In this document: piece after piece, positions 6,529 to 53,852 of the stretch
Layout of the letters: the number at the start of each line of letters is the position of its first letter
How positions within the stretch are numbered: position 1 is the stretch's first letter
From: Candidatus Poribacteria bacterium
Lineage (GTDB): Bacteria; Poribacteria; WGA-4E; PCPOR2b
DNA: 64,000 nt
Direction of reading: 5' to 3'
Assembly: GCA_028819845.1 (NCBI GenBank)
Contig: JAPPKS010000031.1
Span: 62,001-126,000, forward strand
Notes under the pieces: model-generated
Told to the model about the DNA's origin: nothing
The model's database searches: none
What the model saw: the letters and a program-made list of their open reading frames with translations, nothing else
Made by a program: the position numbers and the translations under genes

Positions 6529-7218
6529 TTGAATAAAAAGGCTGTAGTCCTGTTGAGCGGCGGGGTAGATTCAACCACGACGCTCGCCATTGCTCAATCC
6601 CAAGGTTACGAAGTGTGGGCTATGAGTTTTCGTTATGGCCAACGGCACGCCCTAGAACTTGACCGGGCGCGGGATATCGCTGCATCGATGAAGGCGAAAA
6701 AACACATCATTGTAGATATCGATCTGCGGGCATTTGGCGGTTCCGCTTTGACCGATGAGATTGATGTACCGAAGGACCGATTCGAAGACGAAATCGGCGA
6801 CGGAATTCCTATCACATACGTTCCCGGTAGAAACACAATATTTTTGTCGTTTGCAATGGCGTGGGCAGAGACTTTGGAAATTGATACCATTTTCATTGGC
6901 GTTAATGCCCTCGACTACTCGGGATACCCAGATTGCCGGCCGGAGTTCATTGAAGCCTATCAGCGAATGGCAAACATGGCGACAAAGGCTGGGGTCGAGG
7001 GCAAAACGGAACTTAAGATTCTGACGCCCTTAATTTCAATGACGAAAGCGGAGATTATACAAAAGGGATCTGAATTGGGCGTTGACTACGGATTAACCCT
7101 TAGCTGTTACGATCCAGATGATTTTGGCAGAGCATGCGGATTGTGTGACAGTTGTTTTTTAAGGAAAAAGGGATTTGCTGAAGCCGGGGTTATTGATGGA
7201 ATTACATATCTGTCATAA
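6529..7218 (+). CDS. queC: 7-cyano-7-deazaguanine synthase QueC
   Basis: QueC converts 7-carboxy-7-deazaguanine to preQ0 with ATP and ammonia, a step in queuosine/deazapurine synthesis. The 229-residue protein has the PP-loop [10 protein letters not shown] at residues 8-17, the FRYGQRH segment, YVPGRN and [16 protein letters not shown]. The C-terminal zinc-site cysteines are in [18 protein letters not shown]. It starts at TTG 6529, with GGAAGGGA about 10 bases upstream. No queD, queE, queF or tgt is nearby, so it is a lone member of the pathway in this window. Confidence 0.96.
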
Positions 7219-7328
7219 ACCGGTTATGCATTGTTTTCGGCAAGTTGTTTGAATGTTGGGATAGTGCGTGGGAGATGTCGCCTTTCTAAACAATCTTTGA
7301 CTAGGGCGTGTGCATCAATTAGATTACT

Positions 7329-8744
7329 TCAGCAGGTATTACTTTTGTCGATGTACGCTCTTAAACGTGCAATCGCACGTCCGCTGTCGATTGCTTCCTT
7401 GGTTTGTTCAATTGCTTCCTGAGGGTCGGGGAAAAACCCCAGCAGATAGTCTGCAATCGCTGAATTGAGCAAAATTCGGTCGTACACATGTCCCTTCTGA
7501 CCGGATAAAGCTGCTACTCCAGCTTCGGCAAACGCTTCGGCGCTCACTGATTCCAATCTAGGGTTTTTTTCGTAATGGAACCCGTATGATTCCGGATTTA
7601 TGTCCAGTGCAAATTCCTGCTTGCCGCCGTCTACACGCTTAAAACCCTGCGTATAATTAATCGCTTTCCGGTCTGCAACAGAGGGTTTGCCAAGGCGCAT
7701 TGCGTAATGGCTTGTGCCCTCCTCTCCCTTTGTCACCAGTCCGGAATTGAACCCGCGTTCCCGCATCAACTGGAGCAGAGGTTCCTCGTAACCGGGATGG
7801 TAATAGCCAACAATCATATGGTTTGAGTTTGCGGTAAATAACTGTTGCGCTTTTTCGGTCGCCGCCCAAGGCGGGCGTTTTTTGATGTGCATACGCAATT
7901 CACGAATAGCGTAAGCTCCGGGCGAATATTCCCTCTGACTAACATAAGCAAACCCAACCGCTGAATCTTCAATTAAATTTGCAGCTTTCTCAAGTGGGAG
8001 ATTTGTGCGAGCGCCGAGCGTCTTCAGTATTTGCTCTTCCGTTATCCCGAGTTTCGGGGGCATTTCATCTACCCCGTGCAGAATTGACGCTTCGCCAAGC
8101 GCGGCACGCACGGCTGCAATAAACACTGTTGGTCTAAAATACCGCGTGGAACCATCATACGGCTCGCCAAAATGCGTCAGTGAATTGACGGAGACATGAC
8201 GGACCTGCTCAGGGGCGAAGACTGAATCCATATAACCGCGCACTTCGTCGTAGGTTTCACGGTTCATACGTTGGCCGATAAGGGCAGCGCCTTTTAATGC
8301 CGCTTTTACTTGCCCGTTCAAAATCGCTTCGCCCATTGACCGCGTTTCTTCCGAGGTCAGATGTTCACCCCTCAAAATTTTGTCAAGGGATTTTTTGACA
8401 ATTTCCTCTTGCGGGTTTGCGGCTCGATATCCGAGATTTGGATCCAAGATAAACCTAATATCGGGGGGAAGGCAGGAATAGAGGTCTGTCTGGAATTTCT
8501 CAAATGCTGAGACTTCTGCTTCACTCCATTGCGTTTCCTTTGGAAAGTAGTTTCGGATTGTCATTGCAGCAAAAAAAGCGCCCATTTGAGCTTCTGAAAC
8601 CATATCTTCCCGAGAAATCTCTCCCCGCACAGATTTCAAAATCGTACCAAATGTCATTTCGGGCTGGATTGAATCCGTCGCACTTATTCCTAGAGGACGA
8701 GTCTGGTGAGGCCCGGTGCATACTCGCGCTTGCGCTTCTAACAC
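7329..8744 (-). CDS. Anthranilate phosphoribosyltransferase-like protein (TrpD-family paralogue)
   Basis: The protein resembles glycosyl-transferase family 3 enzymes related to TrpD. An N-terminal helical segment contains SREDMVSEAQMGAFFAAMTI. A second helical repeat (EHLTSEETRSMGEAILNG) precedes a Rossmann-like domain with SILHGVDEMPPKLG and the phosphate-binding KGEEGTSHYAMRLG. At about 470 residues it is longer than true TrpD (about 340), and no other trp gene is adjacent, so it is probably a paralogue of unknown substrate. The start is uncertain. The frame is open to a TTG at 8813. I chose GTG 8744 because the family-like QARVCTGPHQTRPLG follows it closely; the first ATG (8657) would remove that segment. 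Confidence 0.72.
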   Translation of the reverse strand: MLEAQARVCTGPHQTRPLGISATDSIQPEMTFGTILKSVRGEISREDMVSEAQMGAFFAAMTIRNYFPKETQWSEAEVSAFEKFQTDLYSCLPPDIRFILDPNLGYRAANPQEEIVKKSLDKILRGEHLTSEETRSMGEAILNGQVKAALKGAALIGQRMNRETYDEVRGYMDSVFAPEQVRHVSVNSLTHFGEPYDGSTRYFRPTVFIAAVRAALGEASILHGVDEMPPKLGITEEQILKTLGARTNLPLEKAANLIEDSAVGFAYVSQREYSPGAYAIRELRMHIKKRPPWAATEKAQQLFTANSNHMIVGYYHPGYEEPLLQLMRERGFNSGLVTKGEEGTSHYAMRLGKPSVADRKAINYTQGFKRVDGGKQEFALDINPESYGFHYEKNPRLESVSAEAFAEAGVAALSGQKGHVYDRILLNSAIADYLLGFFPDPQEAIEQTKEAIDSGRAIARLRAYIDKSNTC

Positions 8745-8965
8745 ATCTTTATTGGGGCCCGGATATTGCCTTTGATGCACGTTTTCTCTCCGTTCGCCAT
8801 GAAAGCCGGGCAAGATGCTCGGTTAACAATGATTGCTGAGTCGGAAAATTCCGTTTGTGTTCTTGAGAATCGGTCAACCACAATTTGCGGCGCATAGGGG
8901 CTGAGTAAGATTCACCGGGGATTTTAGGTTAATTCACAGCGGCTATAACGGGCATGGGCGCCTAA

Positions 8966-9004
8966 CGAAATAAAAGCCCTACACCTTCGGTCTGGCGTAG
9001 GGCT
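8966..9004 (-). terminator. Intrinsic terminator after the beta-barrel gene
   Basis: On the minus strand a perfect 8-bp stem (AGCCCTAC/GTAGGGCT; arms 9004-8997 and 8982-8975) with a 14-base loop is followed by CTTTTATTT. It lies 30 bases past the stop of the gene ending at 9034 and would end the envelope operon. Confidence 0.8.
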
Positions 9005-9033
9005 AATTATCGGAACGCATAGAAAACCACAGT

Positions 9034-10026
9034 TTAAAACAAGAGATCGTCGCCAGTTTCTGGGGTTTCCGGGGCAATTATAGCTTGTTTTTTGCCGCCG
9101 ACAGTCAGATAGAATTGGAACCCGGGTTCATTCACAAAACCAACATAAAAGGCAGATGTATTAGAGAGTTGGTAGCGCAATCCGAGGCTGAGCAAGTTAG
9201 TGATTGTGACGCCGCTAAGTGGCAAAGCCCGCGAAAAGTCGCCTGCCAACCATAAGTCCTCAGAAAATGCCAACTCACCGCCCAATTGCCATATCAAAGT
9301 GAACGAATCCGTAGTCTTGAGTGACTTCGATGAAAGATATGCCCCCAAGGCGCTGTGTGCGTTTAGGTATTCATTGAACTTCTGTGTACCTACCAGATAG
9401 GTGTCGATTCCAACAAACGGAAAACTATCGTGAGGGGTTCGGTCGAGAAACTCATTGTCCGTATTTAGCCTATTGTCGGCGGTATACCCAATCTGAATGT
9501 CTCCACCCACCGATAAGCTAGGCAGCCCATCATGCACCTCAGGTTTGATGTTATATTTGAGTCCAATAACGGTGTCGAACAGCGCTTGATTGTAGACACG
9601 CCTGTTTTCTACCGGGTCGAGTGGCAATGCATCTTTATCCGCGTCGTGGACTCGATAAAAATCAGGGATAATCTTGCGGACGCCGCCAGTGGCGAAGGTG
9701 CCGCCCAAGGTAAAATCTAATCTATCGCTGAGACCATAGGTGAATCGTATCGGCGCCAAAAAAGTCTCAATCTCCAGTTCGACAAGATGAAATTCTTCAA
9801 AACCTCCAACAACCACGCGTTGCCTGTTTTCAGGGATTCGCCTTTCTTTCTCGAATTGGAAAAGCCCAAAGTTAGTCGTGTAACCTCCTTTACCAAGCGT
9901 ATCAGCCGTTTGCATCACGCCAAGTTGGGGTGCTGACGCTTTTCCAACCGTAGGGATTATGGCTACGGCGATAACAGTGGAGATTATTAGAAGACATCGG
10001 CCTCGCGGTAATGGAAGAATTTGCAT
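9034..10026 (-). CDS. Outer-membrane beta-barrel protein (unassigned family)
   Basis: A signal peptide (MQILPLPRGRCLLIISTVIA, cleavage near KASA) is followed by about 300 residues. These have the alternating hydrophobic and polar pattern and aromatic-rich strands of a porin-like or transport barrel. Segments such as LAPIRFTYGLSDRLDFTLGG and LSLGLRYQLSNTSAFYVGF are typical strands. The start is ATG 10026, with AAGGAGA 4 bases upstream; the frame extends to 10080 but without a ribosome site. It is the last gene of a minus-strand group with an Fn3 lipoprotein, a small secreted protein and a VanZ-like protein. The function is not recognised. Confidence 0.75.
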   Translation of the reverse strand: MQILPLPRGRCLLIISTVIAVAIIPTVGKASAPQLGVMQTADTLGKGGYTTNFGLFQFEKERRIPENRQRVVVGGFEEFHLVELEIETFLAPIRFTYGLSDRLDFTLGGTFATGGVRKIIPDFYRVHDADKDALPLDPVENRRVYNQALFDTVIGLKYNIKPEVHDGLPSLSVGGDIQIGYTADNRLNTDNEFLDRTPHDSFPFVGIDTYLVGTQKFNEYLNAHSALGAYLSSKSLKTTDSFTLIWQLGGELAFSEDLWLAGDFSRALPLSGVTITNLLSLGLRYQLSNTSAFYVGFVNEPGFQFYLTVGGKKQAIIAPETPETGDDLLF

Positions 10027-10138
10027 GGATCTCCTTACACTAGAAATTTTGAGTATTGCCAACTCTATGAGTAGGTACAAGCCCTAATCTCGTTGCAATA
10101 GTTGAATTTAACCGTGTGAAGTGAAAAATCGGCGGCTT

Positions 10139-11287
10139 TCAATTGAAAGGCACCCGCTCGCTTTCATCCAAACTGCCGTCGGGCCTCGACGTGTCATCAA
10201 ACGCCGAAATGAAATATTTACGCGGTACACGCCGTTGCCCGTCGAGGAGCAGCGGCTCCGATTCGTATGTGACTTGCGTCTCTTTTGGCTTAAATTTTGC
10301 CCGAAAAACCAAATCATCCCCTAAAACCAACGGCCCGCCAACTCTCGTTGTCGCGTAGATATGATAGCCGGCGAGGTCGCGTTCGGTGTTTCGAGCCCAA
10401 GAAAGAGTAACGACATATTTGCCGGTCCACGGGTCTACCCATCCTACTGCCGCGACGTTCCGTGGTGAAGCTGGCGGCAAATGCGGTGAAGTGGCATTGA
10501 ATTTTGTTTCTGCTTCAACACCGAATTGGTCTACAGCGATGACTCGATAGACTTTGGTAATCCCGTCATGGTCGAAGCTAGTATCGAAGAAGTAGATGGG
10601 TTCATTTCCAAAGCGCTGGCCTTCCGTAAGTTCGTTAAACGAAATTTCACCAAGCAGTTTAAATAGCGGAAGGTCTCCGGACGATGAGGTTTTACCGGCG
10701 AGCACGCGAAAGGTTTTAAAATCATCAGGGAAGTGATAATCTTCCCAAAATAGTTTGACAGTTAAATCATCCACTTGATCGCCAATGTGGACGATTGGAT
10801 CGGGGGGCGGGACGCTCGGCGTGACGCGTGCATTTGGCCAAATTCGAAGCGGGACATCGTTGTCATCTAGCAGCTCATTCGGATCGGGAGTTTCAACACC
10901 GTTTTTGTCTACATAGGAGATTCGGTAGACGTAGTAAAGTTGTCTGCCTTGCGTGAGATCAAACGCATCGTTGACGAGACCTTCATCAATAAAAACCGAA
11001 GTCGCGGCATCAACCTCCCCAACAAGTTCAAACGGAGAATCGGTGTCGCCCGTAAACCATCGATAAATCCGATAATTGACAATTCCCTCAAATCCGGTAT
11101 TCTGCCACGAAACTGTTACTTGTGCATCGCCGGCATGCAGCTCTAAGCCAGGAGGTGAACCTGCGGTGCGTAAGTTCTCTGGATCAAATGGATTGACGTA
11201 ATCTCTATCGTTGGTACATCCGTCCAGCAACAGAGCAAAACTGAGAATTGCAACAGGGATTAATGATTCGATACTGAAAAGTCTCAT
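10139..11287 (-). CDS. Fibronectin type III-domain lipoprotein
   Basis: The 382-residue protein has a lipoprotein signal peptide ending in the lipobox LLDGC at about residues 20-24, so it is probably anchored in the outer membrane. The body contains at least three Fn3-like modules. Recurring features are VTVSWQNTGFEGIVNYRIYR, VKLFWEDYHFPDDFKTFRV and VVTLSWARNTERDLAGYHIY, each a W-x-Y/F strand pair. This suggests an extracytoplasmic binding or scaffold role. It lies 14 bases downstream of the small secreted protein gene and 112 bases upstream of the beta-barrel gene on the same strand. Confidence 0.8.
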   Translation of the reverse strand: MRLFSIESLIPVAILSFALLLDGCTNDRDYVNPFDPENLRTAGSPPGLELHAGDAQVTVSWQNTGFEGIVNYRIYRWFTGDTDSPFELVGEVDAATSVFIDEGLVNDAFDLTQGRQLYYVYRISYVDKNGVETPDPNELLDDNDVPLRIWPNARVTPSVPPPDPIVHIGDQVDDLTVKLFWEDYHFPDDFKTFRVLAGKTSSSGDLPLFKLLGEISFNELTEGQRFGNEPIYFFDTSFDHDGITKVYRVIAVDQFGVEAETKFNATSPHLPPASPRNVAAVGWVDPWTGKYVVTLSWARNTERDLAGYHIYATTRVGGPLVLGDDLVFRAKFKPKETQVTYESEPLLLDGQRRVPRKYFISAFDDTSRPDGSLDESERVPFN

Positions 11288-11301
11288 GCTGCCATTTCCC
11301 T

Positions 11302-11745
11302 TCAGAATCGGTGTTGAAACAAAACCTTGGCTTCCTGAGTTTCCACGTTGTAGCTCGGCGTTAGTCCCATCCTGGGTAACGAAGTCGCAGATGAATTTGA
11401 AATCAAATTCAGGTTATCGAAGAATGAAATCATCGCAGCCAACCCAACAAATCCCATCCCTATCCCAGACATTAACGCACTAGAATCACGTTTATTTGTA
11501 TAGTCTGCCCTTTGTTTAACAATGTCGCCTTGTACGGCTGCATTTAAGTATAAATCAAAGGAATCGTCGGCAGATTTATCGACGATGACGCTCCCAAATT
11601 TTAATCCCATACCAGAGGCAAACAGAGCAATCGTTAGCAGGCGCGTACCATCCGCAGCTTGTGAGGAAGGGATTCGAATTGAAAAATACAACATGCAGCA
11701 TGCAATGACAAAGACTGCAACCCTCCTAATCCTAGGTAGCTTCAT
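11302..11745 (-). CDS. Small secreted or membrane protein of unknown function
   Basis: The 147-residue protein has an N-terminal signal peptide or anchor (VAVFVIACCMLYF, then SSQAADG) and a second hydrophobic stretch near residues 93-107 (SGIGMGFVGLAAMISFF). I do not recognise the family. The start is ATG 11745, with GGAGG 7 bases upstream; the extra codon at 11748 is TTG. The ATG overlaps the stop TGA of the VanZ-like gene by one base, which implies translational coupling. Location in the envelope operon suggests a cell-surface role. Confidence 0.68.
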   Translation of the reverse strand: MKLPRIRRVAVFVIACCMLYFSIRIPSSQAADGTRLLTIALFASGMGLKFGSVIVDKSADDSFDLYLNAAVQGDIVKQRADYTNKRDSSALMSGIGMGFVGLAAMISFFDNLNLISNSSATSLPRMGLTPSYNVETQEAKVLFQHRF

Positions 11746-12299
11746 CAAGAATCCTCCACAGATAGACCTCGCATCTTAATCGATGCTTTTGAAAATCGAC
11801 ACCAGAGGTACATCGAAACCACACCCAAGAAACCGCCTAAGCAGTCGGCGGTCCAATCCAGAATGCTAACAACTCTGCCAGGTACAAAAGACTGGTGCCA
11901 TTCGTCGCTTGCCCCATAAAGGATTACGAACAGGAATGAGAAAAGCCAAGGAGCGCGGCGAATAACGTTAATAGAAACATTCACGAATGCATGCGCAACC
12001 AAAATTCCTAGGACAGTGTACTCTAGAACGTGATATAATTTATCAAGGATATGCCAATCTACATTGGGGATATGCGGTTTGGATAGTGAAGAAAAATAAA
12101 AAATTATCGCCATGCAACCTAGCGGCGGTAACCAATATTTTAAAAATCGTAGGATGTAATCCCCTCCAATAAATCGTGTTACTTTTTTTTGCGCTTCGTA
12201 AGGGGCAATTATACCTAATATGATTTTTCGTTGCAAGGTTTTTTGCTTTGTGCGTAACGAAAATTCACAGTCTCTAGAGTGCGCTCTGTCGAAAATCAC
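11745..12299 (-). CDS. VanZ-like family membrane protein
   Basis: The 184-residue protein has about four membrane segments (WLPPLGCMAIIFYFSSL, YTVLGILVAHAFV, WLFSFLFVILYGASDEWHQ, LGGFLGVVSMYLW). The VanZ-family signatures are present: DKLYHVLEY, then ASDEWHQSFVPGR, then a D in LDWTADCLGG. VanZ-like proteins are widespread in envelope contexts but their biochemistry is poorly known. The GTG start at 12299 gives a long basic N-terminus of about 50 residues, and the real start may be internal. It is the first gene of the minus-strand envelope group and is coupled to the next gene by a one-base stop/start overlap. Confidence 0.82.
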   Translation of the reverse strand: MIFDRAHSRDCEFSLRTKQKTLQRKIILGIIAPYEAQKKVTRFIGGDYILRFLKYWLPPLGCMAIIFYFSSLSKPHIPNVDWHILDKLYHVLEYTVLGILVAHAFVNVSINVIRRAPWLFSFLFVILYGASDEWHQSFVPGRVVSILDWTADCLGGFLGVVSMYLWCRFSKASIKMRGLSVEDS

Positions 12300-12383
12300 A
12301 TGGTCTATTTGGGCATATTGAAATCAATAAAATAAGTCACCCGAACAAATTGAATGTCGGTTTATGGGATGGTGGGAGATGTG

Positions 12384-13043
12384 ATGATGCGATTTCAATG
12401 TCTGTTTTGGTTGAGTCTCTGTGTTATAGGATTGACATCTCTTGGCTGCAGTGATAGCTCGGTTATGGATAAAACAGAAAATGACTCTCAAGAAACAACC
12501 ATCCCGCGCGACAGCGTTTCAATCATGGGAAGGATTTTGCCAGCCGGGATAATGCCGTTAATTATTGTGCAGAGAAATGGGATAGACTTCAAGAACACTG
12601 TCGCCGACGAAGAAGGTAATTTTACTGTTCCAAACCTTCCCGTTGGAGAATACAGTGTACGCGTGATTGCGAGCGGCTTTTTTACAGATATATCAATGAA
12701 CCATTTGGAACTGAAGGTAGGAGAAACTTACGTCGCAGAACCGGTAACCCTGATTGCAAGATCGGAGGCGGCGACCCTGCTTGGGCTGGTGGTTGACAAA
12801 GCGGACAACACCCCAATATCCGATGCCGTGGTTCATGTTGAGTGTTCTACGGGGGTGTGCGCTCTATTGAGCGCCGCATCGGACCAGAATGGAAAATTCA
12901 CAATAAAAATTTGGTCTGGCTTAAGTTCAATTTTTAATGTGCAGAAACTAGGATATCAAATGTCGTCTTTCCAAGTGGAAGCCTTGAAACCCAACGAGAA
13001 ACACGATTTGGGCAAGATAATTATGGAGCGCATAAAACTGTGA
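12384..13043 (+). CDS. Lipoprotein with carboxypeptidase-regulatory-like beta-sandwich domains
   Basis: The 219-residue protein has a signal peptide with lipobox TSLGC near residues 18-22. Two CarboxypepD_reg-like (prealbumin-like) modules follow. The first runs about residues 40-125 (DEEGNFTVPNLPVGEYSVRV) and the second 128-200 (GLVVDKADNTPISDAVVHVE, then DQNGKFTIKI). The start was chosen at ATG 12384, where GGGAG lies 6-7 bases upstream; the frame is open from 12354. It is divergent from the VanZ-led operon, with 84 bases between. It probably acts on the cell surface, but the specific function is unknown. Confidence 0.78.
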   Translation: MMRFQCLFWLSLCVIGLTSLGCSDSSVMDKTENDSQETTIPRDSVSIMGRILPAGIMPLIIVQRNGIDFKNTVADEEGNFTVPNLPVGEYSVRVIASGFFTDISMNHLELKVGETYVAEPVTLIARSEAATLLGLVVDKADNTPISDAVVHVECSTGVCALLSAASDQNGKFTIKIWSGLSSIFNVQKLGYQMSSFQVEALKPNEKHDLGKIIMERIKL

Positions 13044-13146
13044 CCTCGTTTTAACTCCAACAAAAATTCTGCTCGCAGTTAGTGATTCAAATATCTGTTT
13101 AGTCTGATTTTCCGAAATTCGTTGGATTCATTCACGAGGTACAAAC

Positions 13147-13190
13147 AGGCGCGAATATTCTGCTGTTCATAAAGACACGCGCCTATTTTC
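13147..13190. terminator. Possible bidirectional terminator between convergent genes
   Basis: Perfect 7-bp arms AGGCGCG (13147-13153) and CGCGCCT (13178-13184) enclose a 24-base loop, followed on the plus strand by ATTTTCT. It sits between the lipoprotein gene ending at 13043 and infA ending at 13220. The loop is long and the T-run short, so this is tentative. Confidence 0.4.
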
Positions 13191-13219
13191 TGGCCATATC
13201 ATGATTAGCTCGTCGCGCG

Positions 13220-13573
13220 CTACTTTCTCCGCCAGATAATACGCCCTCGAGTCAAATCGTACGGCGATAGTTCAACACTCACCTTGTCACCCGGTAGGAT
13301 TCTGATGTAGTTTTTCCTCAACTTTCCAGCGATGTGAGCCAAGATCAAGTGCTTGTTGTCCAACTCGACACGGAACATGGCATTCGGCAGCGTTTCCAAG
13401 ACGGTACCTTCCACCTGAATTGCGTTGTCCTTCGCTTTAACGTCTGACCGAACTGGATCATCAGATACGTTGTCGCTCTTGGACTGCATGTTCCCCTTTT
13501 GGTTCTTCTTCTTCTGTTTCTTTTTGAACTGGTACTGTCCAGCGCGTCTTTGCGCGGGTTTGCTCTTTTTCAC
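13220..13573 (-). CDS. infA: Translation initiation factor IF-1 with basic N-terminal extension
   Basis: IF-1 binds the ribosomal A site during initiation. Residues about 50-117 are a clear OB-fold IF-1 domain: [40 protein letters not shown], and a C-terminal RIIWRRK. Standard IF-1 is about 72 residues; this frame gives 117, with a roughly 45-residue Lys/Gln-rich extension. The GTG at 13573 has AAGGAGA 9 bases upstream, supporting the long form. An internal ATG at 13489 with AAGGGG just upstream could give an 89-residue form. It lies downstream of cinA on the same strand, with a 122-base gap. Confidence 0.92.
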
Positions 13574-13695
13574 GCGTCTTCGTCTCCTTCTTGGAGGTTA
13601 GAAGTTAATCTAACACTAATTCGCTAGGCGAATCAGGCGCTGCATGTTGTGCGTCAATTGGCGTTCGCAGGTAGCTGTCAGTATTACGTCCAATT

Positions 13696-14499
13696 TCACG
13701 CATCGTCTAGACTGAGAATCTTGTTTTTTTCGATTACAAGCTGACGAAAATAGTTAACAGCTTCTTGTAGTTGTGATTCAGCCTCCGCTGCGTCAATACC
13801 CGTGGAAACTAGATCGACAGGCATGTACTCACTATCAGTACGCCGTAAGGCAATGTACGCTTTCAAATAAACGCGCGGATGCGAGTTCATCACAACTTGT
13901 AACAGCGGCGAAACTTCCGATTCGAACATATTCACATAAACGCGCAATGCCGCCGCTTTCGCGCGATAGCGTTCAGCAATTAGAAGTGCAACATGGCTGT
14001 CAAATATTGCCTTCATCTCTTCCGGCGGTCCTGGCATCATGAGAATCGTGGACAGATTTATCCTGACGCTGGAGCAAGGTGCCCAACCGACAGGATTCTG
14101 AAAGATGTGAGCAGTTTCAGGGACTGTTGCCATTTTAATCATGGCAGGGCTGACATCAGTACGACTCGACAATTCACGTCTATCCATAAAGCCCGCTAAG
14201 GTCTCCTCGTGCACAATCGTTGGTTTACCGATAATCTTAGCGACAGCCTCGACAGTCATATCATCGGGTGTTGGCCCAAGACCTCCGGTTGTCAAAATAA
14301 GGTCTGTTCCTCTCCAAATTGAACTCTCTATTGCATCTTTCATCTCATCAAAATCATCGCGAACCATCGTTATCCGGCGTAGTCTACCTCCCAACTCAAG
14401 CATTCGTTGCGCCATCCAAAATGCATTTGTATCCTGTATTTGGCCCAAAATTAACTCGGTCCCAATCGAAAACAACTCAATGACAGGTACCTTTTCCAC
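13696..14499 (-). CDS. CinA-like molybdopterin-binding domain protein (COG1058 type)
   Basis: The 267-residue protein corresponds to the N-terminal part of CinA. It has the MoaB/MogA-like fold with SIGTELILGQIQDTNA at residues 11-26, TTGGLGPTPDD near residue 69 and the MMPGPPEEM segment. The C-terminal nicotinamide-nucleotide amidase domain (PncC) of full CinA is absent. COG1058 proteins are associated with hydrolysis of ADP-ribose or NAD-derived nucleotides. The ATG at 14499 lies in the same direction as infA. With the nicotinate phosphoribosyltransferase at 21.7 kb, a pyridine-nucleotide role is plausible but inferred. Confidence 0.85.
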   Translation of the reverse strand: MEKVPVIELFSIGTELILGQIQDTNAFWMAQRMLELGGRLRRITMVRDDFDEMKDAIESSIWRGTDLILTTGGLGPTPDDMTVEAVAKIIGKPTIVHEETLAGFMDRRELSSRTDVSPAMIKMATVPETAHIFQNPVGWAPCSSVRINLSTILMMPGPPEEMKAIFDSHVALLIAERYRAKAAALRVYVNMFESEVSPLLQVVMNSHPRVYLKAYIALRRTDSEYMPVDLVSTGIDAAEAESQLQEAVNYFRQLVIEKNKILSLDDA

Positions 14500-27564: not shown

Positions 27565-28647
27565 TCAAAAAAGCCCTGAGATTGAAATCCTCTGCGAATC
27601 GCCAAGGTCATGGGCGTTGAAGGCATAATCCGCAAATAATTTCGCTTCCCCCAAAGGAATTTGAAGTCCGGCTCCCGCGGCGAGTTTATCCCCTTCGGCA
27701 CCAATACGCAGCGCAACTACGTTGAACATCCAGTATTCCACACCGTAACGGAATATCAAATTGCCCCTGGAATCCTCATCATCCTCGAGGTTCCGGCGGT
27801 TTGTTTCCAAATCTGCACCGAATGTCGCCGTGCCGATGAAAGGGAGCGCGATTTGGTATGAGGTGCCAATCCGCAGTCGCGGATCGCGTGTGAAACTTGG
27901 GCGAGTCAATGTGTCCCAACGAATCTGAGTGCCGGTGGCGTCCACTATTGTTACGCCGAGCCGAAGACCACGATACGGACCAAACAATAACCCGAGATCT
28001 ACCCCGAAACCGTTTCCCGTGTTTTCAAATATCGACTGTCTTAGTAGCTTTAGATTCGCGCCAAGTGCCATGCGTTGACCGACTTGGCGTGCGTAGGAAA
28101 TTAACACGGCGTTGTCCGTATTGCTGAACGTGCCCGCAATGATTGGGAGGTCGATGTATATTTCACCCGCTTCTTTAATTTTGTTATTGTTCCTGTCGTC
28201 AAAATCTCCCAAAATTCCATTGCCATTTTTGTCGACAAATGTGGTAAGTGGGATGTCGTCAACGCCGAGTCGAATCCAAGAAATCCCAATTGTCCCGATG
28301 TTTTCAATCTGCTGAACGTAATTTACAAAGTTATACTGCACCAATCCTTTGCTGAGGAATCTTCCGCCGTCAATACCAAACGATTCAGAATACATTGCGG
28401 AAAATGCGTGTTTTTCGATTTGGGCGAGTCCTGCGGGATTCCAGTATGTTGCGTTCGCATCATCGGCGATTGAAACGAACATACCGCCCATCCCCAATGC
28501 ACGGGCGCCAACGCCATGACTGAGAAACTCCGCCGCATGACTTCCTTCCTCCGCCGCATCTACACTTTTTGATGCTATCAGATTCCCGAACAATAGTGTG
28601 AACAACAAGTAAACTAGGTGCTTTTGATACCAAGGTAAGATGCGCAT
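27565..28647 (-). CDS. PorV/PorQ-family outer membrane protein
   Basis: The 360-residue protein has a signal peptide (LVYLLFTLLFGNLIASKSVDA). The PorV/UPF0164 signature GVGARALGMGGMFVSIADDANATYWNPAGLA-type run starts near residue 46, seen as GARALGMGG and WNPAGLA. FadL-like barrel strands follow to a C-terminal Phe (SISGLF). PorV homologues deliver proteins for type IX-like secretion, which fits the secreted proteins with NYPNPFNP tails elsewhere in the window. An Asp/Asn-rich calcium-like insertion (DKNGNGILGDFDDRNNN) lies near residue 140. A direct link to those proteins is inferred. Confidence 0.88.
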   Translation of the reverse strand: MRILPWYQKHLVYLLFTLLFGNLIASKSVDAAEEGSHAAEFLSHGVGARALGMGGMFVSIADDANATYWNPAGLAQIEKHAFSAMYSESFGIDGGRFLSKGLVQYNFVNYVQQIENIGTIGISWIRLGVDDIPLTTFVDKNGNGILGDFDDRNNNKIKEAGEIYIDLPIIAGTFSNTDNAVLISYARQVGQRMALGANLKLLRQSIFENTGNGFGVDLGLLFGPYRGLRLGVTIVDATGTQIRWDTLTRPSFTRDPRLRIGTSYQIALPFIGTATFGADLETNRRNLEDDEDSRGNLIFRYGVEYWMFNVVALRIGAEGDKLAAGAGLQIPLGEAKLFADYAFNAHDLGDSQRISISGLF

Positions 28648-47607: not shown

Positions 47608-48004
47608 ATTGTTTGGATCACGGTTGCAAGTTTGGACAAATCAATTGGGTGGATACTACGGGTTGGTTTCACACACCCCTATTTCTTAGCAAACAAGCGG
47701 CTGTTAACATTTTGTAGTTTAATTGATAATAGCGATTCGCTTGCATTATACACCAATGTGTACTCAACTCAACAAGCATAATCAGGTAGAACGAGGGTGA
47801 ACAGTGTTTACCTCGCGGTGATAATCCGCCGTTACGAACTGAAGCGCAGCGGTTTTTCAAGTATTTCAAAAATACAGATGATAATTTCTTCCCAATTTTG
47901 GAAAACTATTATATACTATCATTATTTCTTGATGTACCAAAAAATCTATCGCCTGTTTTTGTGCTTAATTTTTATTATTGCTTGTTTCATTAGGAGAAAA
48001 TACT
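47608..48004. other. AT-rich divergent intergenic region (397 bases)
   Basis: This separates recG from the first HAF-like gene. It contains a candidate recG promoter (47745-47772) and the inverted repeat TACAC-CAAT-GTGTA (47749-47762) overlapping it. On the right side is the ribosome site AGGAG (47992-47996). No gene or RNA is recognised. Confidence 0.5.
47745..47772 (-). promoter_or_regulatory. Candidate recG promoter
   Basis: On the minus strand TTGAGT (47772-47767), a 16-base spacer and a perfect TATAAT (47750-47745) precede recG by about 135 bases. The repeat TACAC-CAAT-GTGTA overlaps the -10 edge and spacer. Confidence 0.45.
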
Positions 48005-49201
48005 ATGCGTGAGAGTTACACAAGACACAATGGGACCAAAACTACAACTTCGTTTTTCATGTTTGCCCTTTTAATATGCCTAAATTCCTTTTTTCTGTGG
48101 AACACCGATGCGCAAGTCAACCTTGAACCAATTGCCGCACCGGATGGCTCCAAATATACTTTTGAGCGTATTAGCGTCGAGGGTGTAGATTTCTTGGCGC
48201 TGGCGGCGAGCAGCGACTTTGAAGATTTCGCCGGCTACACGAAAAGTGATGACGGCGAAAAAAACGTAGCCTTTACACTCATTGACGGCGTTTTTAAGAA
48301 GTACGACTTCCCCGGCGCGAAAAACACCTATTTCTTCGCACTCGGAAATAATGGGATTGCCGCGGGGCACTACGAAGATAGCGGCGGGCTTTTCCACGGG
48401 GTTATCTTAGAGAATGGCGAGTGGCAGGAATACGACTTCCCGAATTCTGTTCAAACGGAGATTTATGGATATAGTGATTCAACGGGCGCACTGACGGGTA
48501 ATTTTACGGACGAGTCTGGTGTTCGCCGTGGATTCTCTGGAGAGACTATTGTTGAGTTCCCGGGGGCTTTGGAAACGTACGCCGATTTTGTAAGCGGACT
48601 AGGCAATATCGTGGGCAGCTACGTAGATACTGAAGGCGAATATCATGCGTACCTGCGCGGCCCTGGAGGTAGTTTTGCAACGCTGGATACGCCAGAAGTC
48701 CCAAACCAGGAATACTTTTATCTGCACGGTATCAACGATTCACTGGTTGCCGTTGGCAGAGCGAAATCGGAGGATGGCGTCCCGCTCACCTTTGTCGGCA
48801 ACCCCGTCGCACTGCAAGGATTTGGGGTTCCGGGCGCCGTTAGCACGGAAGGTTGGAACATCAATCAGGATAGTTCTGTCGTCGGACACTATGACTCCGC
48901 CGATGGACGCCGACACGGCTTTATCGCCAGACCCTTACAGCCGACCGCTGTGCGGCCGCCGCCTGACCTGAACTATACGTTTGAAAGCATTGATGTTCCC
49001 GGTGTAGAGTTTTTGGCGGTTACGGCGAGTAGCGACTTTGGAGATTACGCCGGCAACTTTCGGAGAGCTGTTGATGGAAAAGATGTCGGCTTTACACTCA
49101 TCAAGGGGGAATTTAAAGACTATGATTTCCCCGACTCGCAGGGCACCTATTTCTATGCACTCGGTAATGATGGGACCGCTGCCGGACACTACGCAAGATA
49201 G
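48005..49201 (+). pseudogene. HAF-like repeat surface protein 1, 5' part (frameshifted)
   Basis: The ATG at 48005 follows AGGAG by 8 bases and opens a signal peptide (FFMFALLICLNSFFLWNTDA). The first 280-residue module consists of repeats of the form GNFTDxxGxxxGF and GSYVDxxGxYHAY, as in HAF-type extracellular repeat proteins. A second module begins at YTFESIDVPGVEFLAV. The frame ends at GTAAGHYAR, where paralogues continue QDSDGLYHG. One extra G at 49193 moves the rest of the module into the frame continuing to 50699. Confidence 0.85.
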
Positions 49202-50699
49202 TGAGGGACTGTACCACGGAGTGGTATTGGAAAATGGGGAACTTCGAGAATGGCGTTTTCAGGATGCCGTTCAAACGGAGATATACGGTTTCAGTGATAG
49301 AACCAAGGCACTGACTGGTAGTTTTGTAGATGCTTCCGGTGTTCGCCGCGGGTTTTCAGGAGATATAGTCGTCGAACGCCCAGGGTCATCGGCAACATAC
49401 GCCGATTTTGTGAGTTGGACGGGAAATATCGTGGGCAGCTACGTGGATACAAAAGGCGTGTATCATGCATACATGCGTAGTCCGGTGGGCAGATTTCTAT
49501 CTATTGACCTTCCAAACGCACTAAATCTGGAATACTTTTTTCTCCACGGTCTAAACAGGGCAAGGACTGTTGTTGGCAGAGCCAAAGCGGTGGGTGATGT
49601 CCCGCGTACCTATGTTGGCAGCCCGCTCAATCTACAGGAATTGCATTTTCCGGGCAGCGTTAGCACGGAAGGGTGGAATATTAACGAGGATGGTTCAGTC
49701 GTTGGGCACTATGACTCGGCCGATGGGCGTAGACACGGATTTGTCGCAAGACTCGGCACTAAGGAAGAGAGCGATTATTTCAGCAATACGTATAATGTCA
49801 CGCTAACTACAGGGTTGAACATGATTTCAGTTCCGTTGGCACCCACTGCGGCGATGAACGCAAAGTCGCTTGCCGCGCTGACTGGTTCGACAATCGTCAT
49901 TACTATTGACGCAACGAACCAGCGTTTCGTCGCATGGACGCAAAGCGCACCGGACGACGGTTTTTCGATTGAAGGCGGAGGCGGATATATCGTCAATGTT
50001 CCGCAATCCCGCAGCTTCGCCTTCGTCGGCGCACCCTGGACAAGTCAACCGGAGTTGACAGCGGCGCCGCCTGCCATTTCCGTTAATTCGACCCAGCATA
50101 AGCAGGCATGGGCGTTCGTCGTTAACGGGCACCTCGAAGGTGTGCCGTCGTTTGACGGCTATCAGGTGTCCGTCCGCAACCTGAGAACAAACAGCACTAT
50201 AACTACGCCAGTGCAAGGCAATTACTTCGCTGCTGCCACCGCGGATTTGGCGCGCCAAAGCGTTGTCCAAGTCGGAGATGTGGTGGAAGTTCACGTCATC
50301 GGTCCGAGTGGCAATGTTGAGTCACCGACCCTCGACTACAGAGTAACCCCTGAGCACTTGGCAGACGCCGTAATGTCTGTGAGGCTCGACAGCATTGGCA
50401 GACCGAAGCTAACCCAGCTATTGCAGAACTACCCGAATCCGTTCAACCCGGAGACGTGGATTCCGTATCAACTCGCGGAAGACAGTACCGTGACGGTATC
50501 CATTTATGATACAACGGGTACGTTAATTCGCAGCCTTCCACTCGGTTTGCAGCCAGCGGGATTCTACAATAGCCGGCACCGCGCCGCTTACTGGGATGGA
50601 CGAAATGCCCTTGGGGAACGCGTTGCGAGCGGTACGTATTTGTACCAGTTGACGACGCCATCCTACCATCAAACACGGCGGCTGGTTATAATAAAGTAA
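49194..50699 (+). pseudogene. HAF-like repeat surface protein 1, 3' part (frameshifted) with FlgD/Por-type tail
   Basis: This continues module 2 in the +1 frame (QDSEGLYHGVVLENGELREW onward). Next is a beta-rich C-terminal region (GLNMISVPLAP, AWAFVVNGHLEGVPSFDGYQ), and finally the tail LLQNYPNPFNPETWIPYQL with SIYDTTGTLIRSL and ATYLYQLTTP-like strands ending RRLVIIK. The tail resembles FlgD-Ig/type IX sorting domains. Joined to the 5' part it would give about 898 residues. No independent start or ribosome site is evident at the junction. Confidence 0.85.
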
Positions 50700-50809
50700 G
50701 GTCTTTCCGATACCAGCGAGCGTCACAGCCGTGAAATCTTCGCAGCCGTAATATGCCGTTAGGCGTAGAAACACGCCTACACTCTACGTACGTTATAATG
50801 AGGATAACT

Positions 50810-52645
50810 ATGGATCACCACAAAAAAGCGATTCCAACCTTGTTCATATTTTTAACGGTCTGTGTTTTGGGATTTGGCGTTGCACGGGTCCATGCAGAAA
50901 TTCCGATAGCAGATTATTTCTTTGAAACTATAGAAGTCCCGGGTGTCGATTTTTTGGAAGTGGCTGCTAGCAACGATTTCGGGGATTATGCAGGCAACAC
51001 CCGCAGCCCCGATGGCGAGAAAATCGTCGGTTTCACATTGATTGACGGTGTTTTTAAAAGGTACCAGTTTCTAGGTGCTCTCAATACCTTCTTCTATGCA
51101 CTCGACAACACCGGAAAAGCAGCCGGGCACTACAAAGATATAGATGGACTCTATCACGGCGTTATCTTAGAAGGTGGCGAACTGCGCCAATACGATTTTC
51201 CCGGTGCCGCTGAAACCCACATCTACGGCATCAGCGATGAAACGGGGGCTTTGAGCGGTAACATCGTAGATGAAGCAGGCACCACCCACGCTTTCTCGGG
51301 GGAACTGACCATTACATTCCCCGGTGCAGTCAACACCTATGGAGACTTTGTTAACGCCGCAGGGGCTGTGGTCGGCAGTTACATCGATGCAGATGGCATG
51401 TTTCATGGATTCATACGCCACCCGGACGGCAGTTTCACCACTATTGACCTTCCAACAATGCCGAATCTTAGATACCTATTCGTTAATACCATCACCGATT
51501 TCGGGGTTATCGGTTTCAGAGCCAAAGCTGCAAACGACATACTGCGTTCCTATATCCTCTTACCAGATGGCACCCTCTATGAAGTGCGCATCCCAGGTAG
51601 TGTTATCACTGTCGTCCGAAATGTTAATCAGGATGGAAGTATTGTCGGGTATTATGACTTAGCGGATGGACGTAGACTCGGTTTCCTCGGTAGACCAAAT
51701 ACACAACCAGCCAGCGAAAGTTTCGGCAATATTTTTTCTATACACCTCTCTCAAGGTTTGAACATGCTGTCTGTGCCGCTGAAACCGACTGTCCACATGA
51801 CAGCGCGCACGCTTGCAGTAAAGACAAACGCGACCACGGTCATTACACTTGATGCGGAAAACCAACAATTCGTCGGGTGGACCCTAGATGCACCGGACGA
51901 CGGATTTTCCATCGAAGGGGGTAATGGGTACATCGTCAATCTACCAATGGCGCGCGACATAGTCTTCACGGGGACAGCGTGGACAAATCTAGCGGAGGCT
52001 GCACCTGCCATTCCCCCCTTGATAAGGGGGGACAGGGGGGTTGTCCAGGAAGCATGGGCGTTCGTTGTAACCGGGCATTTGAACGGTAAACCGGCGTTTG
52101 ACGGCTATCAGGTAATAGTCCGGAACCTCAGAACAAACAGCGCGATAACCGCATCGGTGCGGGGCAGCTACTTCGCCGCTGCAACCGCCGACTTGTCGCG
52201 GCGAAGCGTTGTGCAAATTGGAGATGAAATTGAAGTTCATGTCGTCGGTCCGGGCGGAGTTGTTGAATCTCAAACCCTAAGATATAAAGTTACCCGTGAA
52301 CACTTGGCAAACGCCGTGATGTCTGTCAAACTTGACGGAATTGGTAAACCCAAACTGACGCGGTTATTGCAGAACTATCCCAATCCGTTCAACCCGGAAA
52401 CGTGGATTCCGTATCAACTTTCGGAAGACAGTCCTGTGACGGTATCAATTTATGATACAACAGGTAAGTTAATTCGCAATCTTCCACTCGGTATTCAATC
52501 AGCGGGGTTTTACAATAGTCGAGACCGCGCCGCATATTGGGATGGACGTAATGCCGAGGGCGAAGGCGTCGCGAGCGGCGCCTATTTCTACCAATTGACT
52601 ACGCCGTCTTTCCATCAAACGCGTCAGCTTGTCATTATAAAATAG
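50810..52645 (+). CDS. HAF-like repeat surface protein 2 with FlgD/Por-type tail (intact paralogue)
   Basis: The 611-residue protein has a signal peptide (TLFIFLTVCVLGFGVARVHA). It has one HAF-like module (about residues 30-310), the shared GLNMLSVPLKP/AWAFVVTGHLNGKPAFDGYQ region, and the tail NYPNPFNPETWIPYQLSEDS. It differs from the neighbouring paralogues by an in-frame GC palindrome (52011-52042) that encodes PPLIRGDRG before VQEAWAF. The ATG at 50810 has GAGGA 6-7 bases upstream; the frame is open from 50753. Probably exported and surface-attached; ligand unknown. Confidence 0.88.
   Translation: MDHHKKAIPTLFIFLTVCVLGFGVARVHAEIPIADYFFETIEVPGVDFLEVAASNDFGDYAGNTRSPDGEKIVGFTLIDGVFKRYQFLGALNTFFYALDNTGKAAGHYKDIDGLYHGVILEGGELRQYDFPGAAETHIYGISDETGALSGNIVDEAGTTHAFSGELTITFPGAVNTYGDFVNAAGAVVGSYIDADGMFHGFIRHPDGSFTTIDLPTMPNLRYLFVNTITDFGVIGFRAKAANDILRSYILLPDGTLYEVRIPGSVITVVRNVNQDGSIVGYYDLADGRRLGFLGRPNTQPASESFGNIFSIHLSQGLNMLSVPLKPTVHMTARTLAVKTNATTVITLDAENQQFVGWTLDAPDDGFSIEGGNGYIVNLPMARDIVFTGTAWTNLAEAAPAIPPLIRGDRGVVQEAWAFVVTGHLNGKPAFDGYQVIVRNLRTNSAITASVRGSYFAAATADLSRRSVVQIGDEIEVHVVGPGGVVESQTLRYKVTREHLANAVMSVKLDGIGKPKLTRLLQNYPNPFNPETWIPYQLSEDSPVTVSIYDTTGKLIRNLPLGIQSAGFYNSRDRAAYWDGRNAEGEGVASGAYFYQLTTPSFHQTRQLVIIK
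52011..52042 (+). repeat. GC-rich palindromic repeat inside a coding sequence
   Basis: CCCCCCTT-GAT-AAGGGGGG is a perfect 8-bp inverted repeat with a 3-base loop, followed by ACAGGGGGG. It lies where the other paralogues have the unrelated residues ISAEAVQEHE or ISVNSTQHKQ. It resembles GC-rich intergenic repeats of several bacteria, here captured in frame. Confidence 0.65.
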
Positions 52646-53138
52646 AGTCACTTTTAGTCATTGCAACTAAAAATCATTCATTTGCTCATTGGTTTGTGGG
52701 AGAGGCTTCCTAGCCTTGATTGTCAATCAATCACTCCTTGTGTAAATTTGAACCTAAATGATTATAGTAACCTAAAGGCGTCACGGTTGTGATATCCGTG
52801 TAACTGTGACACCCATTAAAGTTCGAAAACTATTTGATAATCCCAATTTGAAAATTGTTCTCGCATGCTGTAATTGATAATCGGTCTGAATTTAGACTTT
52901 CAAATGTTCAATCTAAGAAACATTCGTAAACAGCGTGGTTTTTCTTCCATTTATTGGTGAAGTGCCATATAATATCAAGAAATCCAAATCTTCGCAGAAA
53001 TGGAACTCTGGTTTTAAAACAAAATTCTGAACTCAACCCTACCATGGTTCAAGAACTAGATTCACCTAACGATCCGTCAGAACGGACACAGTGTCCGTTT
53101 ATCTTTGGAGCAAAATAATCTAAGCGAGGTTTTCTTTA
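52646..53138. other. 493-base intergenic region between paralogues 2 and 3
   Basis: No gene is seen. An AT-rich hairpin (TTTTAGT/ACTAAAA, 52652-52672) follows paralogue 2. A perfect inverted repeat AACGGACAC-A-GTGTCCGTT (53081-53099) lies 40 bases upstream of the paralogue 3 ATG. The remainder is A+T-rich and without recognisable promoters. Confidence 0.5.
53081..53099. promoter_or_regulatory. Perfect inverted repeat 40 bases upstream of paralogue 3
   Basis: AACGGACAC-A-GTGTCCGTT is a 9-base inverted repeat with a single central base, followed by TTATCTTT. It could be an operator or a weak hairpin in the leader. Confidence 0.4.
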
Positions 53139-53852
53139 ATGCAGAATAAGAACAAAAGCGGTTATTTTATTTTCATCTTCACGTTTTTGATGTGCCTTAA
53201 TTCCCTTTTCTTTGGAAACAGTGCCGCACAAGTCAACGATCCATCCGTTGTCGCGACGGGAGGTTCCAACTATACCATTGATTCTATTCGGGTTGAAGGC
53301 GTAGAGTTTTTGGCGGTGACTGCGAGTAGCGACCATGAAGACTACGCGGGTTACACACTGAGCGCTGACGGGGAAAAGACCGTCGCCTTTACACTCATTG
53401 ATGGCGAATTTAAGAGGTATGAATTCGAAAACTCGCAGGACACTCGATTCTATGCGCTCGGTAATGACTTGCGAGCTGCAGGACACTACCAAGACAGCGA
53501 CGGTCTGTACCACGGTGTCATCATGGAAAACGGTGAATTGCAGCGCTATGATTTTCCGGGTGCTGTCCAAACGTTTATTTACGGTATCAGCGATGCGACC
53601 GGGGTGCTTACCGGCAATTGGATTGACGAAGCCGGCGTGCACCGCGGCTTTTCAGGGGATGAAACAGTTGAATTCCCCGGGGCGCGGGAGACGCACGCTC
53701 ATTTTGTGAACGCGAGCGGAGGTATGGTAGGCAGCTACGTTGATGCTGGCGGCGTATACCATGCATACGTGCGGACCCCGGGTGGTAGGTTTATTTCACT
53801 CGACCTGCCGCGTGCAGGAGAACTGGAATACTTTATTTGTGCACGGCATTAA
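53139..53852 (+). pseudogene. HAF-like repeat surface protein 3, 5' part (frameshifted)
   Basis: The ATG at 53139 has GAGG 8 bases upstream and a signal peptide (YFIFIFTFLMCLNSLFFGNS). It encodes most of the first HAF-like module, with GHYQDSDGLYHGVIMENGEL and VGSYVDAGGVYHAYVRTPGG. It ends at GELEYFICARH, where the paralogues continue FLHGIND. One extra T in CTTTATTTG near 53832 shifts the frame; the reading then resumes in the frame running to 55827. Confidence 0.85.

Follow-up and report, generated by a model that had tools for sequence, protein, structure and literature searches.

The outer membrane holds at least one known pair of a beta-barrel and a lipoprotein, LptD and LptE. Barrels of the COG4313 family (Pput2725, SphA, and TcpY) are channels that fold about 14 N-terminal residues into the lumen; the family is implicated in taking up hydrophobic molecules, with a hypothesised lateral opening (PMC4493636). 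FapF, the amyloid exporter of Pseudomonas, carries a plug helix (PMC5557850). An FCB operon encodes VanZ-2, SprA, GcvH, TonB-C, and a Wzi-like barrel (PMC12419801, section 20). Here, we describe a putative operon of four envelope genes from a Candidatus Poribacteria bacterium that resembles each of these systems in part. We analyzed 64,000 nucleotides of a contig (the window, whose positions are used as coordinates throughout; its genome is G000). Four minus-strand open reading frames lie head to tail at 9034-12299, and a hairpin follows the last of them:

11745-12299, minus strand: VanZ-family membrane protein (PF04892 and NF037970 over cut-off; motifs by eye)
11302-11745, minus strand: small protein, 147 amino acids from the ATG at 11745 (open reading frame; predicted to begin with a signal-like helix, continue with two long helices, and close with a beta hairpin whose last residue is Phe)
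10139-11287, minus strand: lipoprotein, 382 amino acids (lipobox-type Cys24; Fn3-type repeats, about three as estimated by length)
9034-10026, minus strand: outer-membrane beta-barrel, 330 amino acids, 12-stranded in the predicted model (segment TADTLGKGG before strand 1; C-terminal Phe)
8975-9004, minus strand: intrinsic-terminator-like hairpin, 29 bases past the barrel's stop codon

The genes for the small protein, the lipoprotein, and the barrel (the core) have been conserved since the ancestor of the phylum, and they behave like one functional unit. We tentatively propose that the operon is a Poribacteria-specific outer-membrane channel module, with a dedicated lipoprotein, that moves or places an endogenous component of the envelope. 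This is the reading that we favor, at somewhat less than even chances.

Profile searches found the barrel in 78 of 84 Poribacteria genomes, including all 55 of the high-quality ones. The lipoprotein was found in 80 of the 84, or in 78 if we require a strong and near-full-length match (G008 and G060 have weak or paralogous matches only). The small protein was found in 79 of 84 genomes at E ≤ 0.001 (counting G050, which has a 36-residue match only) and in 54 of the 55 high-quality genomes. Within the order, a search of 58 genomes gave 56 with the barrel, 55 with the small protein, and 57 with the lipoprotein (56 orthologues, as G008 has only a shorter paralogue). The barrel is single-copy: there was one match per genome, except that G002 and G064 have two halves of one split gene. 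(The barrel is truncated by the end of the contig in these two genomes and at some other loci.) When about 85,000 species of bacteria and archaea were scanned with two peptide patterns, which may miss divergent relatives elsewhere, there were 120 pattern matches and 63 confirmed loci, and all 63 are from Poribacteria (the record titles are Candidatus or uncultured Poribacteria).

Conservation of gene order in relatives had been set beforehand as the test of the operon, and the core order was kept far beyond that of other neighbors. Using profiles for the four proteins, we compared 79 loci, which are the window and 78 relatives (G008, G050, G063, G067, and G071 have no core locus and were excluded). 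At 74 of the 79, the three core genes adjoin one another and their order is unchanged. In 62 of these the genes are small protein, lipoprotein, and barrel, and in the other 12 they are preceded by VanZ, although in G004 this is a broken remnant. Three of the five exceptions are at contig ends (G031, G032, and G062), and the other two, G060 and G061 from family f5, are real splits. As an internal control, we counted families of open reading frames near the core in 56 loci. The core families were present in 56, 55, and 54 of these loci and dtd in 44, while the remaining listed families were in at most 28. The conservation of the core therefore does not reflect general synteny.

The fourth gene has a looser tie to the core. 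The four-gene order is best read as ancestral, with VanZ being dispensable to the core. VanZ is the gene immediately before the small protein in families f1 (G000 and G002), f4, f5, f7, f8, and f10, and the outgroup genome G059 is among these cases. PF04892 was matched in 72 of the 84 Poribacteria genomes; the same search did not find VanZ in the f6 and f9 genomes. The window's VanZ is the only one of the four proteins to reach a curated family cut-off (PF04892, E = 1.1e-11, 45.9 bits versus a cut-off of 30.1; NF037970, E = 4e-20, 72.5 bits versus a cut-off of 20); the small protein, the lipoprotein, and the barrel reach none. By eye, it has the motifs DKxxH, DExxQ, and DxxxD. In VanZ-2 of the Lipocone superfamily, helix 2 carries RKxxH and helix 4 carries DxxxD, and lipid head groups are the predicted targets of the superfamily (PMC12419801). 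Our protein has the DxxxD motif as DWTAD, but its helix 2 motif, DKLYH, is DKxxH instead of RKxxH (also by eye). If the VanZ protein contributes to the module, it might do so by acting on a lipid. Like the FCB operon, our locus combines VanZ with an outer-membrane barrel, but the other partners were not recognized at the window locus, and the SprA-like gene of this genome is on another contig (G000:C12). The main text of the Lipocone paper mentions neither Poribacteria nor fibronectin (PMC12419801).

The barrel is predicted to have a 12-stranded, channel-like fold. The AlphaFold2 model, from a 30-row alignment, has a predicted local distance difference test (pLDDT) of 81 and a predicted template-modelling score (pTM) of 0.74, and we assigned twelve through-strands from its list of strands. 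FapF was the first match by Foldseek (E = 2.2e-8, TM 0.45). By VIA-align, the best solved matches were KdgM (Z = 16.8), FapF (16.5), and a COG4313 channel (15.7), which are within about 1 of each other, followed by autotransporter barrels with Z of about 14-15. A fold search of this kind cannot exclude families that it does not list. At the level of sequence, the barrel fits none of the families named here, and searching the sequences of the Protein Data Bank (PDB) with the barrel's profile gave nothing relevant. The barrel ends in Phe in 53 of 54 relatives, and the remaining one is cut by the end of its contig.

Our alignments (A1-A3) contain the window protein and 29 or 30 relatives, chosen from the 54-55 in the order, with deep-branch proteins left out. 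In the barrel alignment, conservation is relatively high (modal frequency of 0.76) in PQLGVMQTADTLGKGG, the segment of roughly 16 residues that precedes strand 1. This segment is where the COG4313 channels insert their 14 or so residues into the lumen, so it may act as a plug. In strands b2, b3, b5, b6, and b8, one face has many polar residues and is more conserved; the faces were assigned without coordinates, so which of them points inward was not seen.

The likeness to the COG4313 channels (217 residues aligned to 4rl8, and a predicted barrel with the same number of strands) raises the possibility of an uptake channel for hydrophobic or amphipathic nutrients, which the sponge host might supply; the lipoprotein would then be a capture or accessory subunit. 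Both the fold match and the proposed role of that family in hydrophobic uptake favor it. However, no catabolic genes were recognized in the shared neighborhood, and we would expect channels for specific substrates to vary across genomes, whereas this barrel is near-universal and single-copy in one phylum. It is also encoded together with a lipoprotein and a small membrane protein, and it does not match the COG4313 family by sequence: PF13557, which we take to be the accession of this family (Phenol_MetA_deg), is not among the 7 families that were listed for 30 barrel homologues by hmmscan with E up to 0.1. We consider an uptake channel to be unlikely.

The match to FapF similarly raises the possibility of a polypeptide exporter for one or more disordered or amyloid-like proteins. 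FapF is also 12-stranded, and it is at the top of one fold search and level with the top of the other. But strand 1 is separated from the signal region by only 16 or so residues, for which no helix is predicted, and these are too few for the periplasmic coiled coil of FapF. Neither a C39 peptidase (FapD) nor amyloid subunits or another repeat substrate were recognized by eye in the open reading frames of the window and the deep-branch loci, not all of which were scanned against Pfam. Such an exporter seems quite improbable to us.

The small protein is predicted to be a helical hairpin whose C-terminus forms a beta tail, although the confidence of this prediction is low. In its AlphaFold2 model, a helix at the N-terminus is followed by two long helices and then by a beta hairpin at the C-terminus; the pLDDT is 59, and we left the model out of the fold searches for this reason. 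The terminal Phe is conserved in all 54 relatives. A search of PDB sequences with its profile gave nothing relevant. From its layout, we guessed that it might belong to DUF5683 (PF18935), which also has two helices and a C-terminal strand ending in Phe, but this was not confirmed. PF18935 is not among the families that were matched by 31 homologues of the small protein, and the PGxGQ motif is absent from all 54 proteins. Comparing the small protein to a DUF5683 profile of ten proteins with hhalign gave a probability of only 35% (E = 4e-4); with subsets of the profile, the probability was 30% for five proteins and 1.2% for the four from the paralogue locus.

That locus encodes a shorter paralogue of the Fn3 lipoprotein, which is present in many genomes, so in Poribacteria the DUF5683 matches also adjoin an Fn3 lipoprotein. 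In 30 genomes, 17 of 21 matches to the paralogue have a DUF5683 match no more than about 1.7 kb away (8 over the cut-off and 9 below it; the count leaves out G011:C4, where the DUF5683 match is upstream in another arrangement). We also opened five such loci (L081, L082, L083, L159, and L163), and in four of them a DUF5683-like protein is next to the shorter lipoprotein. The genes that follow this pair in the loci that we opened are, presumably, a DUF3108-like protein and then Mfd. No DUF5683 gene was seen beside the paralogue in the window's own genome.

In the lipoprotein of the core, Cys24 of the lipobox type follows a hydrophobic stretch and is invariant in all 31 of the selected rows. The alignment indicates a putative signal peptide and a lipobox Cys, as in bacterial lipoproteins. 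A conserved linker, DxxNPxDxxNxxTxGxP, comes after the Cys. The earlier note had called it an Fn3 lipoprotein; the lipoprotein part holds, but Fn3 is weak by sequence. PF00041 (Fn3) was matched in 4 of 31 homologues (at best, E = 2.3e-5), the window protein has no Pfam family, and there are weak matches to Fn3 structures in PDB.

In the module that we propose, the barrel would be the outer-membrane channel, and the Fn3-type lipoprotein would be its membrane-anchored partner, for assembly or for gating. The small protein would be a helical hairpin that is anchored in a membrane and ends in a beta tail, and it could connect the channel with the inner membrane. The cargo would be an endogenous component of the envelope (a lipid or something linked to a lipid), and not an imported nutrient. 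We prefer an endogenous cargo because the core is single-copy, near-universal, and ancestrally linked to VanZ. The earlier note had suggested that all four products are envelope proteins and that they may form a surface-assembly or transport unit. The envelope location is supported by the fold of the barrel, by the invariant Cys of the lipoprotein, and, weakly, by the topology of the small protein. The modelled fold of the barrel also supports transport, but the unit really has three genes instead of four, with VanZ being ancestral but dispensable.

Several points weigh against our proposal. The complex and the pore are both predictions. The barrel has no sequence match to any channel family (by hmmscan with 30 homologues), and a 12-stranded fold is common to porins, autotransporters, and exporters, so a fold match does not show a function. 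No ATPase or periplasmic bridge was recognized near the core, where not all open reading frames were scanned. VanZ is detached from the core in G003 (from f1) and in f2, where it is elsewhere in the genome; in family f3 it also lies elsewhere, except in G013 and G023, where it was not found; and in the six genomes of genus g2, which keeps the core, it was not found except for the remnant beside the core in G004. In f5, the unit itself is broken: G061 has VanZ and the small protein on one contig and the lipoprotein and the barrel on another, and in G060, neither the lipoprotein nor the barrel is found in the roughly 3.4 kb past VanZ and the small protein. These splits hint at two sub-pairs, one of VanZ and the small protein and one of the lipoprotein and the barrel. 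The trees of the lipoprotein and the barrel are similar (r = 0.97 across the 59 genomes in which the retrieved stretch contains all four proteins, dtd included; the genome of the window lacks dtd there and is not one of them), and the partial correlation given dtd is 0.79, but we take this as consistent with a unit and no more, because dtd is short and inflates the partial correlation, which makes it a weak control. On the supporting side, conservation in the outer loops that we assigned to the barrel equals that in the strands (0.71 for each, versus 0.62 for the periplasmic turns), but these figures cover this barrel only, and general knowledge is the basis for judging whether they are unusual.

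The conserved loops would also suit a unit that does not transport anything, in which the barrel, the Fn3-type lipoprotein, and the small protein form a scaffold, an adhesin anchor, or an envelope tether. Fn3 repeats are common in adhesive and scaffold proteins, and the small protein could bridge the membranes (if its low-confidence model is right). On the other hand, the polar-rich and conserved face of b2, b3, b5, b6, and b8 fits a functional lumen, with the caveat about its orientation given above. We view a scaffold as unlikely as well, and rank it after the uptake channel.

The splits and the comings and goings of VanZ are what we would expect if there is no functional unit at all, and these are independent envelope genes that have stayed adjacent through shared transcription and slow rearrangement. 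Furthermore, dtd and a XerC-like gene (both named by eye) have also been kept downstream in several deep branches. Because their functions are unrelated, some of the conservation of gene order is passive. Yet the core is retained where nearly every other neighbor has changed, and in all of the deep-branch loci that we read, other than f5 and those cut by contig ends. We think it improbable that the core genes are unrelated in function.

If the channel module does place a lipid, it might be compared to LptD/LptE. The likeness is the pairing of a barrel with a lipoprotein; the differences are that our barrel has 12 strands and no LptD domain, and that LptD itself was not found in the 84 genomes. 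LptD (PF04453) was matched in none of the 84 Poribacteria genomes, but the search matched only 2 of 14 controls: Escherichia coli and Caulobacter were matched while Bacteroides ihuae, which is expected to export lipopolysaccharide (LPS), was missed. Divergent LptD proteins may therefore escape the search, and an absence of LPS is not shown. We considered whether the barrel, the lipoprotein, and the small protein are a machine peculiar to Poribacteria that delivers a lipid or glycolipid to the outer membrane, and that does the work of LptDE at the end of the Lpt pathway with an unrelated 12-stranded barrel. We give this specific version only a slight chance, and we lowered our estimate a little further because the control for the LptD search is limited. 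Poribacteria are not mentioned among the listed matches in the literature on lipid A, LptD, or LpxC.

We also asked about secretion by the Por pathway. In 2014, Poribacteria were reported to have Por-type C-terminal sorting domains but no Por structural genes (PMC3909097). We found TIGR04183, the family of the Por-type tail, in all 84 genomes. SprA-like matches were present in 83 of 84 genomes (only G063 has one over the curated cut-off) and in none of 14 controls; in the listed rows, these are mostly in frames of about 2,000-2,300 amino acids. The window's genome encodes a 2,188-amino-acid protein at G000:C12:82815-86063 (L190:5439-12005) with collinear matches to TIGR04189 (SprA) and SprA_N (8.7e-5), both below their cut-offs. 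We found no literature on SprA in Poribacteria. The idea that the core is a type 9 secretion system (T9SS) route for proteins with Por tails was dropped: TIGR04183 is in every genome and cannot discriminate, and SprA-like matches are in 83 of the 84. In the window, a run of paralogous secreted proteins at 47978-55827 has tails that look Por-type by eye (LLQNYPNPFNPETWIPYQL...). A FadL/PorV-like outer-membrane protein is encoded at 27565-28647 on the minus strand (PF03349, 5.5e-4, and PF19572, 1.2e-3; below both cut-offs), and it is possible that this is a PorV-like partner of the SprA-like protein.

The four genes are probably transcribed together. The arrangement described in the earlier note, with all genes on one strand, a one-base overlap, and gaps of 14 and 112 bases, agrees with the coordinates of the open reading frames. 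The stop codon of VanZ overlaps the ATG of the small protein (at 11745) by one base (TGATG); 14 bases separate the end of the small protein (11302) from the ATG of the lipoprotein (11287); and 112 bases separate the end of the lipoprotein (10139) from the ATG of the barrel (10026), whose stop is at 9034. The small protein has a Shine-Dalgarno-like sequence, GGAGGA, ahead of its start, and the barrel has another, AAGGAG. The identification of the first gene as VanZ-like was borne out, but its start is uncertain (GTG at 12299, or in frame, TTG at 12236 or ATG at 12113). The terminator that had been claimed after the operon corresponds to a strong terminator-like hairpin at 9004-8975, with 11 pairs (7 of them G-C) and a T-rich tail, and the longest stem among nine listed. 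A 68-nucleotide stretch with this hairpin folds at -23.4 kcal/mol (z = -3.2; 1 of 200 shuffles was equally good). Across 7000-14000, terminator-like sites (9 observed versus 8.0 expected) and promoter-like sites (9 observed versus 10.1 expected) are at chance levels, so only this hairpin stands out.

On the other side of the operon, the divergent neighbor (12354-13043, plus strand) is a putative lipoprotein with carboxypeptidase-regulatory-like stretches (PF13620, 1.1e-13). Beyond it, the minus strand encodes translation initiation factor IF-1 at 13220-13573. The match to TIGR00008 (4.7e-36) covers residues 48-115, and the protein is extended at its N-terminus by about 45 residues that appear to be rich in lysine.

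As far as we searched, the core is uncharacterized: the fold is known and the combination of genes is new, and the mechanism that we give is a proposal. The titles and abstract openings of the papers listed for the Poribacteria envelope and for VanZ contain no description of this gene set. The SprA-like protein bears on the open question of why Poribacteria have Por sorting domains without Por structural genes (PMC3909097). For Poribacteria, which are uncultured and associated with sponges, a near-universal and single-copy envelope module could be used as a marker and as a target for structural studies. The result for LptD makes a role in lipid delivery worth testing. If the module is indeed a dedicated channel for envelope biogenesis, it would help to explain how an outer membrane is built in a diderm phylum that has no recognizable LptD.

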